Shown one piece after another: positions 11,668 to 20,803 of a stretch of 64,000 nucleotides of DNA. The DNA lies in assembly GCA_015056175.1 (NCBI GenBank), contig SVGT01000002.1, positions 62,001 to 126,000 of the forward strand, given 5' to 3'. The position numbers and the translations under genes were made by a program. This stretch comes from Clostridiales bacterium (GTDB lineage Bacteria; Bacillota; Clostridia; Christensenellales; Aristaeellaceae). The notes below the pieces were generated by a model. That model was not told the origin of the DNA and made no database searches. It saw only the letters and a list, made by a program, of their open reading frames with translations. Each line of letters begins with the position of its first letter. Position 1 is the first letter of the stretch.

Positions 11668-11810
11668 TCAGGTTCTTCTTGGGGCTTACTCAGCCCCAAA
11701 CCCTGAGGCAGGGTACTGAGTACCCTGCACCCGCAGTGTTGGTCATAGGGTATGGGTAAACGATGGGATTTCCCAATGCAGCAGGTATGAATCAAGTCGA
11801 CTTGGGTGCA

Positions 11811-11936
11811 GGCCGATCCGACGGCGCAGAGCGCCTTCTTCATCATACCAAGGCAGGGAGCGAATAAATTCGCTCCTGCTCTTGGTTGATGAAGTCCCGG
11901 TTTTTCTCCGTTTACGGAGAAAAACACGGATCGGCC
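11811..11936 (+). repeat. Cloverleaf repeat core, copy 2
   Basis: The outer stem GGCCGATCCG/CGGATCGGCC is 10 bp and perfect. The inner hairpins are GGCGCagaGCGCC, CTTCATC..GATGAAG capped by GGAGCGAAT/ATTCGCTCC, and TTTTTCTCCG/CGGAGAAAAA. Confidence 0.88.
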
Positions 11937-12013
11937 TGTGCATGTTGCTGACGAAAAAAACGAAATGGACAATCCACAATACTGCGGCGGGAACAAGAAA
12001 GCGCCCTACGATG

Positions 12014-12177: not shown

Positions 12178-12996
12178 TTACTTGGAAGCAGGGGTGAAGG
12201 TGGGCACGAAGCCGCGTTCCACGATCAGGTCATACACCTTCTGGGTGTAGACGCATTCCTGCAGCGCCTTGACGAAATCGGAGTTTTCGTTCTCGGGCTT
12301 GACGGCGAACAGGTTCACGTAAGCGGCGGCAGCCTGGCTGTCGGCGGGCTCGGCGAAGATGCCGTCCACAGAGGGGTTCAGGTTGGCCAGAGCGGCGTTG
12401 TTGCCGTTGATGACGGCGTAGGCCACGTCAGCGCGCAGGCCGGGGATCTGCTCGGCGTTGGCTTCGATGATCTCCAGGCTGTACACGTTATCCACGATGT
12501 CTTCCTTGGTGACGATGGAATCCAGGGTAGTGCCTTCGGGCAGGGTGATCAGGCCGGCGTCCTGCAGCAGCAGCAGCGCGCGGGTCATGTTGGTGGGATC
12601 GTTGGGGATGGCCACCTTATCGCCGTCGGCAGCAGCTTCCAGGGTGTCCTTGGTGCCCTTGTAGATGGCCAGGGGCTCAAAGTGAGTGGGAACCACGCCC
12701 ACCAGCTTTTCCTTATCGGAAGCGGTCTCGTTGTAGCCGGCCAGATAGGGCACATGCTGGAAGAAGTTGGCAATGGCGTCGCCGCCGGCCACAGCGGGGT
12801 TCTCGGTGACGTAGTCGGTGACCACGGTGATCTCCAGATCAAAGCCCTTGGCCTTCATGTCATCCTTGATCAGCTCCAGGATTTCGGCATGGGGGCTGGG
12901 CGTGGCGATGAGCGCGGTCTTCTTGGGCGCGGCGCAGCCGGCAAACAGGGACGCGGTGAGTACCAGAACCAGGATCAGAGCAAGATACTTTTTCAT
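12178..12996 (-). CDS. metQ: MetQ-type methionine/sulfur amino-acid binding lipoprotein
   Basis: This 272-residue solute-binding lipoprotein belongs to the NlpA/MetQ family and captures D/L-methionine or a related compound outside the cell. It has a lipoprotein signal with lipobox LFAGC (Cys at about 20). The mature part contains DYVTENPAVAGGDAIANFFQHVPYL and KVAIPNDPTNMTRALLLLQ, both standard for MetQ. The ATG at 12996 has AAAGGAG 8 bp upstream; the track start is six codons too early. It is the last gene of metN-metI-metQ. Confidence 0.92.
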   Translation of the reverse strand: MKKYLALILVLVLTASLFAGCAAPKKTALIATPSPHAEILELIKDDMKAKGFDLEITVVTDYVTENPAVAGGDAIANFFQHVPYLAGYNETASDKEKLVGVVPTHFEPLAIYKGTKDTLEAAADGDKVAIPNDPTNMTRALLLLQDAGLITLPEGTTLDSIVTKEDIVDNVYSLEIIEANAEQIPGLRADVAYAVINGNNAALANLNPSVDGIFAEPADSQAAAAYVNLFAVKPENENSDFVKALQECVYTQKVYDLIVERGFVPTFTPASK

Positions 12997-13032
12997 GGGA
13001 TATCTCCTTTCAATCATAGACCTTTCAGTATA

Positions 13033-13695
13033 TCAACGGATGCGGTGATCCATGCGGCGGGTAAGCTTGGTGCCGCTTACGGTGATCACCTGCACCAGAA
13101 TGACCAGAACAATGGAGGCAACGTACATAATATCGTACTTGCGCAGGTTAAGACCCTTGATGATGGCCAGCGAGCCCAGACCGCCGCCGCCTGCGGTGGA
13201 CGCCATGGCGGTGTAGGCAAGGATCGTGGTCACGCAGATGGCCGCGCCGTTGATCAGGCTTGGCATGGCCTCGGGGATCAATACCTTGTAGACGATCTGC
13301 CAGGTGGTGCTGCCCATGGACTGTGCGGCCTCAATGATGCCGCGATCCACGTCGATCAGGCTGCTTTCCACCATGCGCGCTACGTAGGGGAAGGCGCTGA
13401 TCACCAGCGGGAAGATGACCGATTTGGTGCCGATGGCCGTACCCATCACCACGCGGGTGACCGGGAACAGCATGGCCAGCAGAATCACAAAGGGGATGGA
13501 GCGGAGGAGGTTTACCACCGCGCCCAATACCGTGTTAAAGGTGGGCACGGGCTTGATGCCGTCCTTCCTTGTGATAACCAGCAAGACGCCCAGAGGCAAG
13601 CCCAGCACGTAGGCGATCAGGCTTGCGGGGATGGTCATGTACAGCGTTTCCAGGAAGGCCACCCACACCAGATTGAAAATTTCAGCAGCGTTCAC
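13033..13695 (-). CDS. metI: MetI-type ABC transporter permease
   Basis: This 220-residue inner-membrane permease has about five transmembrane helices. The cytoplasmic EAA-like loop, AAQSMGSTTWQIVYKVLIPEAMPSL, couples it to the ATPase. The segment VVNLLRSIPFVILLAM is characteristic of MetI. It starts with GTG, overlapping the metN stop (GTGA), which suggests translational coupling. It works with MetN and MetQ to import methionine or related sulfur amino acids. Confidence 0.93.
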   Translation of the reverse strand: MNAAEIFNLVWVAFLETLYMTIPASLIAYVLGLPLGVLLVITRKDGIKPVPTFNTVLGAVVNLLRSIPFVILLAMLFPVTRVVMGTAIGTKSVIFPLVISAFPYVARMVESSLIDVDRGIIEAAQSMGSTTWQIVYKVLIPEAMPSLINGAAICVTTILAYTAMASTAGGGGLGSLAIIKGLNLRKYDIMYVASIVLVILVQVITVSGTKLTRRMDHRIR

Positions 13696-14726
13696 TGGGG
13701 GTACACCTCCTTCACCGTCAGCCCCTGGCCCTCCAGGTACTTTGTCACCTTTTTGCGGTCCTCCAGATCATCCGGCATTTCAATGAGCATCTGTCCGTAG
13801 CTCTTTTCGCCGATGCGCTTGATATCCGCGCTGAGGATGTTCACATCCGCGCCGCTTTCGCGGATCATGGAGGCGATGATGGGCTTTTGCGCGTTGGAGC
13901 CGTCAAACACGATGCGCAGCGCAGGCACATGCAGCATTTCTTCCCTGGGCGTTTCCTGATCGGCAATGATGCCAAACAGGCGCTTGCCGGCGGCGGAGCG
14001 GGTATGGACGAACACCTCGTCCACCGTGCCCTCTTCGGCGATCTTGCCGCCGTCCAGAATGGCCACGCGGGTGCACACCTGACGGATGACCGCCATTTCG
14101 TGGGTGATGATGACCACCGTGATGCCCAGGCGCTTGTTGATATCCTGCAAAAGAGCCAGGATGCTCTGGGTGGTCATGGGATCCAGCGCGGAGGTGGCTT
14201 CATCGCACAGCAGCACTTCCGGGTTGCTGGCCAAAGCCCTTGCGATGGCCACGCGCTGCTTCTGGCCGCCGGAAAGCTGGGCAGGATAGGCGTCCTCCTT
14301 GGCTTCCAGACCCACGATCTTAAGCAATTCCTTGACCCGCTGATTGGCCTTTGCCTTCGGCACGCCTGCGATCTCCAGGGGGTAGCGCACGTTGCGCCCC
14401 ACGGTTTTCTGCATCTGCAGATTGAACTGCTGGAAGATCATGCTCACCTTGCGGCGCATCATGTTCAGCTGCTTTTCGTTCATGGTCAGCACGTCCTGAC
14501 CGTCGATCAGGATGCGGCCGTCGGTGGGCGTTTCCAGGCGGTTCATGCAGCGGATCAGCGTGCTTTTGCCCGCGCCCGACATGCCGATGATGCCGTAGAT
14601 CTCGCCCTTGCGGATCTTGAGGGAAATATCGTCCAGCGCGGCAAACTCGCCGCCGGTGGAAAGGGGAAACACCTTGCGCAGACCCTGTACCTCGATCTGC
14701 ACAGGGGCGCTTGCTTCAACGGGCAT
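13692..14726 (-). CDS. metN: MetN-type ABC transporter ATP-binding protein
   Basis: This 344-residue ATPase energises the MetNIQ importer. It has Walker A GMSGAGKST (about 48), a Q-loop FQQFNL, signature LSGGQKQR, Walker B VLLCDEATSALDP and an H-loop ITHEM. A C-terminal NIL domain (about 265-344) normally senses internal methionine and inhibits transport. An ATG at 14726 sits 8 bp after AAGGAG; the GTG chosen in the track (14732) would be too close to it. The gene follows a leader peptide and terminator (14793-14918). Confidence 0.93.
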   Translation of the reverse strand: MPVEASAPVQIEVQGLRKVFPLSTGGEFAALDDISLKIRKGEIYGIIGMSGAGKSTLIRCMNRLETPTDGRILIDGQDVLTMNEKQLNMMRRKVSMIFQQFNLQMQKTVGRNVRYPLEIAGVPKAKANQRVKELLKIVGLEAKEDAYPAQLSGGQKQRVAIARALASNPEVLLCDEATSALDPMTTQSILALLQDINKRLGITVVIITHEMAVIRQVCTRVAILDGGKIAEEGTVDEVFVHTRSAAGKRLFGIIADQETPREEMLHVPALRIVFDGSNAQKPIIASMIRESGADVNILSADIKRIGEKSYGQMLIEMPDDLEDRKKVTKYLEGQGLTVKEVYPQ

Positions 14727-14792: not shown

Positions 14793-14822
14793 AAAAAACC
14801 GCTCCGCGCGATTGCGAAGCGG
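14793..14822 (-). terminator. Attenuator terminator before metN
   Basis: On the minus strand CCGCTTCGC pairs with GCGGAGCGG (one T-G pair) around AATC, followed by TTTTTT. It lies between the Cys-rich leader peptide and metN, so read-through must be regulated or partial. Confidence 0.82.
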
Positions 14823-14843
14823 CCTTGATAACACAAGCGAATG

Positions 14844-14918
14844 TCAGGCGGCGCAACACAAACAGCACGAGAGGACGCTCGCGCACATGGACATTCGCAT
14901 AGCAAAGCGGGTATACAT
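14844..14918 (-). CDS. Cys/Met-rich leader peptide of the metNIQ operon
   Basis: This 24-codon ORF is too short for the ORF track. It starts ATG TAT ACC with GGGAGG 7 bp upstream and lies downstream of a strong promoter. The peptide has five Cys codons, four of them close together in SCCLCCAA, and four Met codons, then a TGA stop. It is followed within 30 bp by an intrinsic terminator and then metN. The arrangement is that of a leader-peptide attenuator: ribosome stalling at Cys codons when charged tRNA-Cys is scarce would favour antitermination. No expression evidence is available. Confidence 0.72.
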   Translation of the reverse strand: MYTRFAMRMSMCASVLSCCLCCAA

Positions 14919-14958
14919 GGGCAAGCCTCCCTTCAGCGTGTCGCCGTTTGATAGGGGC

Positions 14959-14988
14959 ATTATAGCAAATGCGTATATACCCTGTCAA
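14959..14988 (-). promoter_or_regulatory. Sigma-A promoter of the metNIQ leader
   Basis: The minus strand has consensus TTGACA (14983-14988), an 18-bp spacer and consensus TATAAT (14959-14964), 40 bp before the leader-peptide start codon. Confidence 0.88.
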
Positions 14989-20279: not shown

Positions 20280-20803
20280 TGTGGAACCCTCTTCGGGTTC
20301 CACACCTCCGAACAAGGGGCATGATGCCCCTTGACCCGCATTAGTGGTCGGAGAGGAAGTGCTTAGATGATGCGGTTTCCCACTGACAGGTTATGAGCTA
20401 CGGCGATTGTCGGACAGGCCGATCCGGCGGCGCGGAGCGCCTTCTTCATCATACCAAGGCAGGGAGCGAATACATTCGCTCCTGCTCTTGGTTGATGAAG
20501 TCCCGGTTTTTCTCCGTTTACGGAGAAAAACACGGATCGGCCTGTGCATGTTGCCGACAAAAAGATGGAATTGACAATCCTCAGTCACTTCGTGACAGCT
20601 CCTTTGCCAAAGGAGCCTTTGTTGGAAATGCTTGGCTTGTGGACGATGGATACGGGCTGCGGCATGTTACGGCGGCGGGAGCAAGCCCCCGCCCTACATT
20701 GATCATGGGGAAGATGTTTGCTGTGCAGCGTACCTGTGTCCCATACGGCGGGTGCAGGGTACTCAGTACCCTGCCGCAGGTGTGGGGGCGCGCAGCCCCC
20801 ACG
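20280..20803 (+). mobile_element. Composite palindromic element, copy 3 (splits mreC from mreD)
   Basis: The left arm (20280-20352) has GTGGAACCCtcttcGGGTTCCAC and AAGGGGCAtgaTGCCCCTT. The core is at 20417-20542 and the right arm (about 20705-20803) has AGGGTACTcAGTACCCT and GTGGGGGCgcgcaGCCCCCAC. The core-to-right-arm linker contains a GTCAC/GTGAC plus GCTCCTTTgccAAAGGAGC repeat (about 20576-20622) and a gcgggagcaagcccccgc repeat. The gap 20262-20882 contains no gene. Confidence 0.78.
20417..20542 (+). repeat. Cloverleaf repeat core, copy 3
   Basis: The outer stem GGCCGATCCG/CGGATCGGCC is perfect. The inner hairpins are GGCGCggaGCGCC, CTTCATC..GATGAAG capped by GGAGCGAAT/ATTCGCTCC, and TTTTTCTCCG/CGGAGAAAAA. 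Confidence 0.88.

Follow-up and report, generated by a model that had tools for sequence, protein, structure and literature searches.

Several amino acids are known to control genes through leader-peptide attenuators, and the metN-metI-metQ (metNIQ) operon in the 64,000-nt stretch of DNA analysed here (the window) raises the question of whether it is controlled in this way and, if so, which codons of its leader act as the sensor. According to a preliminary description, metN is preceded, in order, by a consensus promoter, an ORF of 24 codons whose ribosome site is good, and an intrinsic terminator; it had proposed that Cys codons switch the operon. The inventory of parts is accurate (Table 1), and the locus is very probably a ribosome-mediated transcription attenuator, with methionine supplying the control codons.

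The leader and its operon

Every part of the leader region, together with metN, metI and metQ (named by Pfam and NCBIfam matches), lies on the minus strand, which had not been specified previously. The sigma-70 promoter is the sole promoter match within 4.5 kb and is separated from the leader ORF by 40 nt; the upstream neighbour, on the same strand, encodes an FtsW/RodA-type protein. The ORF contains five Cys codons, four of them inside SCCLCC, and four Met codons, counting the start, and the fold of the leader has a z-score of -2.5 against chance.

Table 1. Parts of the metNIQ leader and the downstream genes, in window coordinates
Feature	Position	Strand	Details	Evidence or occurrence
Promoter	14959-14988	-	-35 TTGACA 14988-14983; -10 TATAAT 14964-14959; 18-nt spacer with TG	12/12 sigma-70 match; kept in relatives
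Shine-Dalgarno (SD) of leader ORF	14926-14933	-	AAGGGAGG; 7 nt 5' of ATG	
Leader ORF	14844-14918	-	24 codons; MYTRFAMRMSMCASVLSCCLCCAA	Present in 38/46 metN loci
Predicted control codons	14886-14900	-	Met7 14900-14898; Met9 14894-14892; Met11 14888-14886	Stall folding
Cys12 codon	14883-14885	-	Sole Cys codon within antitermination range	Stall folding
Hairpin H1 (predicted anti-antiterminator)	14865-14884	-	Arms 14884-14878 and 14871-14865; in ORF, directly 3' of Met codons	Single-sequence folding; similar hairpin in most relatives
Antiterminator strand (region 2)	14850-14874	-	Overlaps SCCLCC codons 14870-14853	
Terminator stem-loop	14799-14823	-	Apex is partner of region 2	
U-tract	14793-14798	-	U6	
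metN	13692-14726	-	ABC ATPase with NIL domain; ATG 14726, alternative start GTG 14732	TIGR02314, 3e-107 (under its curated cut-off); PF09383
metI	13033-13695	-	Permease	NF008049, E 6e-56
metQ	12178-13017	-	NlpA lipoprotein	PF03180

Searches with Rfam found no riboswitch or T-box at the leader at gathering scores and nothing credible at relaxed thresholds, in agreement with the preliminary description: neither the T-box family RF00230 nor RF00162 or another SAM family matched. The same genome has T-boxes elsewhere (12 matches) and one SAM-I riboswitch, before metK, so that the attenuator at metN would be used despite those devices being at hand.

Two further observations concern the window. The segments GCTTGTGTTATCA, before the terminator, and TGTGATAAGC, after it (14833-14786), are complementary and could lengthen the terminator stem around the U-tract; this complementarity did not turn up in L002, a relative from the same genus. 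A dispersed repeat at 11786-11967 and 20392-20573 (copies 89% identical) recurs about a dozen times or more elsewhere in the genome, at 78-94% identity, and is possibly a small non-autonomous element.

Conservation and alternative pairing

The best matches to the window's MetN, at about 60-90% identity, come from Christensenellales metagenome genomes; those with names include Candidatus Pullichristensenella and Limiplasma. The preliminary description had raised conservation of the small ORF and an alternative antiterminator pairing as points of interest, and both are found. Among 46 non-redundant metN loci (MetN identity at least 57%), the leader stands directly upstream of metN in 38, and all 38 leaders contain internal Met codons. 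In the other eight, the locus begins at a contig end (L009), metA sits between leader and metN (L017/L188), the leader is on the strand opposite to metN (L013/L179), or a leader was not seen upstream of metN (L006, L010, L012, L049 and L054). The order of promoter, SD, ORF and terminator is repeated in the relatives, and 52 of 54 loci have a best promoter score of 10/12 or higher, versus one of 54 when shuffled.

Methionine is the constant element of these leaders, in cores such as AMRMSM, MMMRMSM, CAMRMNMM and MMMRMSMMM, while the other residues vary strongly. In 36 representative leaders, Met accounts for 19.5% of residues, and ATG for 0.4% and 1.3% of codons in the other two frames. The number of Cys codons ranges from one (L004, L008, L015) to nine (L053). 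Two leaders from genus g30 (L037, L039) keep the RNA switch with a single internal Met codon amid many Arg codons, reflecting either decay or altered specificity. The exact pattern ATGATGATGCGNATGNNNATG, which fits one subtype only, was absent from a phylum-wide sample of 399 genomes. Past the terminator, a conserved small hairpin, GGCAGACGTGCC, lies about 20 nt downstream and ahead of metN in L031, L032, L042, L056 and L062, and in L066 a variant of it is built into the terminator.

Across 30 aligned leaders, the 3' arm of H1 together with UUUGUG pairs with the terminator apex. Standard pairs make up 85.5% of the antiterminator cells, against at most 66% in slid registers, and one pair occurs as C-G (16), U-A (8) and G-C (1). 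Cells changed on both sides number 17 versus 9.0 ± 2.1 in shuffles, and covariation is 0.300 versus 0.249 ± 0.013, as high in none of 500 shuffles; the shuffle control ignores kinship, and the slid-register control and the three-type pair carry more weight. Terminator pairing in the same alignment is 88.5%. The distant relatives L021, L027 and L030 have different sequences, yet their terminators, judged by eye, are able to pair upstream. H1 does not align by column, as loop indels shift its arms and make column counts uninformative, and the contrast between cognate and non-cognate duplex energies reaches only p = 0.05; the latter is weak because GC-rich segments pair promiscuously, and register-specific counts were used instead. 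Pairing between GCGAAUGUC in the ORF and GACAUUCGC after its stop was also considered as a general feature and rejected: although perfect in the window, over the 30 leaders it drops to 69% paired and shows no covariation.

The leader combines the features of an attenuator, namely an SD-bearing ORF between promoter and first gene, an intrinsic terminator, an exclusive covarying antiterminator, and Met codons at the predicted stalling position. Sequence comparison establishes the leader, its Met core, the two exclusive structures and the gene context.

Predicted sensor codons

For stall folding, a ribosome was placed at each codon in turn and the RNA that it did not cover was folded. The predicted probability of the terminator on the window leader is 0.97 without a ribosome and 0.98 with one at Met7, falling to 0.23 at Met9 and 0.00 at both Ser10 and Met11, before rising through 0.11 at Cys12 and 0.54 at Ala13 to 0.83-0.99 at Cys18-Cys22. 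Antitermination is thus predicted only with the ribosome around Met9 to Cys12. A kinetic variant, with the polymerase placed just beyond the terminator apex, gave the same range in most leaders, including metQ, metA and metY leaders of unlike sequence; L005, L045 and L052 are among the relatives in which the terminator wins at every codon at equilibrium and the antitermination range appears in the kinetic variant only. Six of 36 leaders have no clear antitermination range. Across the 36 representatives, the mean percentile of Met codons for antiterminator pairing is 0.727, versus a null of 0.500 ± 0.034 and as high in none of 5000 circular shifts, with p-values that are indicative, as the representatives are not fully independent. 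This enrichment is robust for footprints of +9 to +17.

Translation of the leader ORF, stalling on uncharged Met-tRNA and the amount of regulation are inferred. With ample Met-tRNA, the ribosome would clear the Met cluster, reach the last codons of the leader ORF and cover the antiterminator strand, allowing the terminator to form and leaving metNIQ off; with no ribosome, H1 would sequester the same strand, again with termination. When elongator Met-tRNA is short, a ribosome stalled at Met9-Met11 would cover the 5' arm of H1, so that its 3' arm and UUUGUG could pair with the terminator apex, whereupon RNA polymerase would continue into metNIQ and methionine would be imported. A shortage of methionine also slows initiation and lowers the charging of initiator tRNA. 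Since the ribosome-free leader is predicted to terminate, the switch should respond when elongator Met-tRNA is moderately short and fail or reverse when the shortage is severe; on this model, the response may be reversed in extreme starvation, and the initiation problem may be the reason that Met attenuators are rare.

A possible refinement of the methionine-codon attenuator, compatible with it though held only tentatively, is that the Met codons provide the main input and the Cys codons right behind them add a wider sulfur-amino-acid signal. Cys12 falls within the antitermination range, where the window leader reads MSMC, and Cys is present in that range in 13-22 of 30 leaders, depending on the footprint. 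The metQ and metN2 leaders L191, L194 and L196 carry MCMCMC, encoded by AUGUGC repeats, and in this resemble the CMCRRMC of Streptomyces metL (PMC8079986). Against this, Cys codons are not statistically enriched in the range (mean percentile 0.489 in the 36 representatives), RNA pairing may be what keeps the AUGUGC repeats, and several leaders lack Cys near the control Met. The frequency of TGY in frame +1 was dropped as a Cys control, since any ATG with C or T after it biases the count.

The mechanism in the preliminary description, in which uncharged Cys-tRNA stalls ribosomes at SCCLCC and turns metNIQ on, is very unlikely: attenuation by a leader peptide stands, with a conserved leader and a covarying antiterminator, while Cys codons as the sensor do not. 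The idea drew on the five Cys among 24 codons, and finds company in the many relatives whose leaders end LCCAA or LCCVA. There is also precedent in mycobacterial Cys leader ORFs (PMC1262725; Canestrari 2020, by its title, via PMC13236596), likewise short ORFs with a Cys run ahead of sulfur genes. In those, however, the sensor is formed by Cys codons near the stop and there is no conserved terminator hairpin (PMC1262725), whereas most Cys codons of the clostridial leader are outside the sensing range and are not conserved at the sensing position. A stall at SCCLCC would let the terminator win because these codons occupy the antiterminator strand, and among the 48 Cys codons that the leaders carry in the final third of the ORF, none or one lies inside the antitermination range. 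The metY leader is free of Cys, and the three single-Cys leaders point the same way. The segment UUUGUGUUGC near the ORF end, mostly read as Leu-Cys-Cys, is kept in most leaders, even in the genus g6 leaders L004, L033, L034, L035 and L040, where the ORF stop precedes it. Spacing from start codon to control Met is in frame in all leaders, and from control Met to UUUGUG and UUUGUGUUGC it is outside the common frame in six of 30. As the g6 ORFs end earlier and this spacing slips out of frame, UUUGUGUUGC is kept as RNA, and the terminal Cys codons are most plausibly a by-product.

It is equally improbable that the leader is a structured riboswitch binding methionine or SAM directly, with the ORF incidental. 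Strong covarying structure and the conserved segments GCGAAUGUCC and UUUGUGUUGCG would suit an aptamer, but besides the absence of an Rfam match, the SD and start codon are kept, ATG is almost confined to the leader frame, unrelated leader sequences retain Met codons and the same geometry, and the hairpins vary freely, with no single aptamer among them. An arrest peptide, whose nascent chain senses the ligand, would agree with the short leader and its conserved RMS core, but has very little probability given the strong variation of the non-Met residues, which is expected for codon rather than peptide sensing.

Probable regulon, known systems and significance

With a covariance model of the leader, the window genome yields a single site, and 55 of 200 family genomes together yield 58 matches that score 50 bits or more. 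Among the weaker matches, from which those consisting of terminators only were left out, are unlike leaders that stand before metQ-metN operons (L191, L195, L196, L197), before metN2 (L194), before metA (L188; homoserine O-acetyltransferase MetA, NF047918) and, as the Cys-free leader MVSVWSMRMPMRGEMFPAPLRV, before metY (L198; O-acetylhomoserine sulfhydrylase, TIGR01326). All genes behind these leaders (metNIQ, metQ-metN, metN2, metA and metY) serve methionine. In genus g25 (L179 743-884 and L180 614-750), a Met-codon leader and terminator face a DUF218 (YdcF-like) gene, away from metN; either the leader has been inverted or this gene is a new member of the regulon.

The window genome, a 91% complete draft, has no PF04204 match for a MetA-type acyltransferase, its PF01053 matches are weak only, and it contains one S-methyltransferase (PF02574). 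Given the first two results, methionine import should matter, and at 91% completeness the genome fits an organism dependent on imported methionine.

The leader shares with the trp, his, leu and thr attenuators a short ORF with many codons for the regulated amino acid, alternative H1, antiterminator and terminator structures, and the position of the ribosome as the switch. It differs in its Met control codons, in controlling an importer (and, in relatives, metA and metY), in an antiterminator that grips the terminator apex, and in its clostridial host. A counterpart is metL of Streptomyces lividans, a proposed Met leader before metNIQ with a leaderless transcript and no typical intrinsic terminator (PMC8079986); its predicted peptide (...ARCMCRRMCAF) likewise places Met beside Cys. 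The clostridial leader, unlike metL, which was proposed without comparative testing, has an SD, a terminator, covariation and occurrence in many genera. A survey of attenuators in Actinobacteria found no Met attenuators (PMC1262725), and a literature search for methionine-codon leader attenuators found only the Streptomyces proposal, within a largely open-access literature, so that absence is not proof. Firmicutes His leader peptides (PMC2965389) similarly put an ordinary leader peptide in place of a T-box, though for histidine and other genes. Some other Clostridia have a T-box (L073, L080, L083) or SAM-I (L075) before metN; these leaders share the gene and the logic of reading through on shortage, and differ in that the RNA binds tRNA or SAM directly.

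Taken across Christensenellales, a so far undescribed family of Met-codon attenuators probably controls metNIQ, metQNI, metA and metY, replacing T-box and S-box, even though initiation on its own leader needs charged Met-tRNA. Methionine is an awkward attenuator signal, as its lack also hampers initiation. If the reading is right, methionine joins the attenuator signals through a covarying family in Clostridia equipped with T-boxes and SAM-I as well, the way in which a common, barely tractable gut order regulates methionine uptake would be explained, and how a Met-codon attenuator handles falling initiation would become directly testable.
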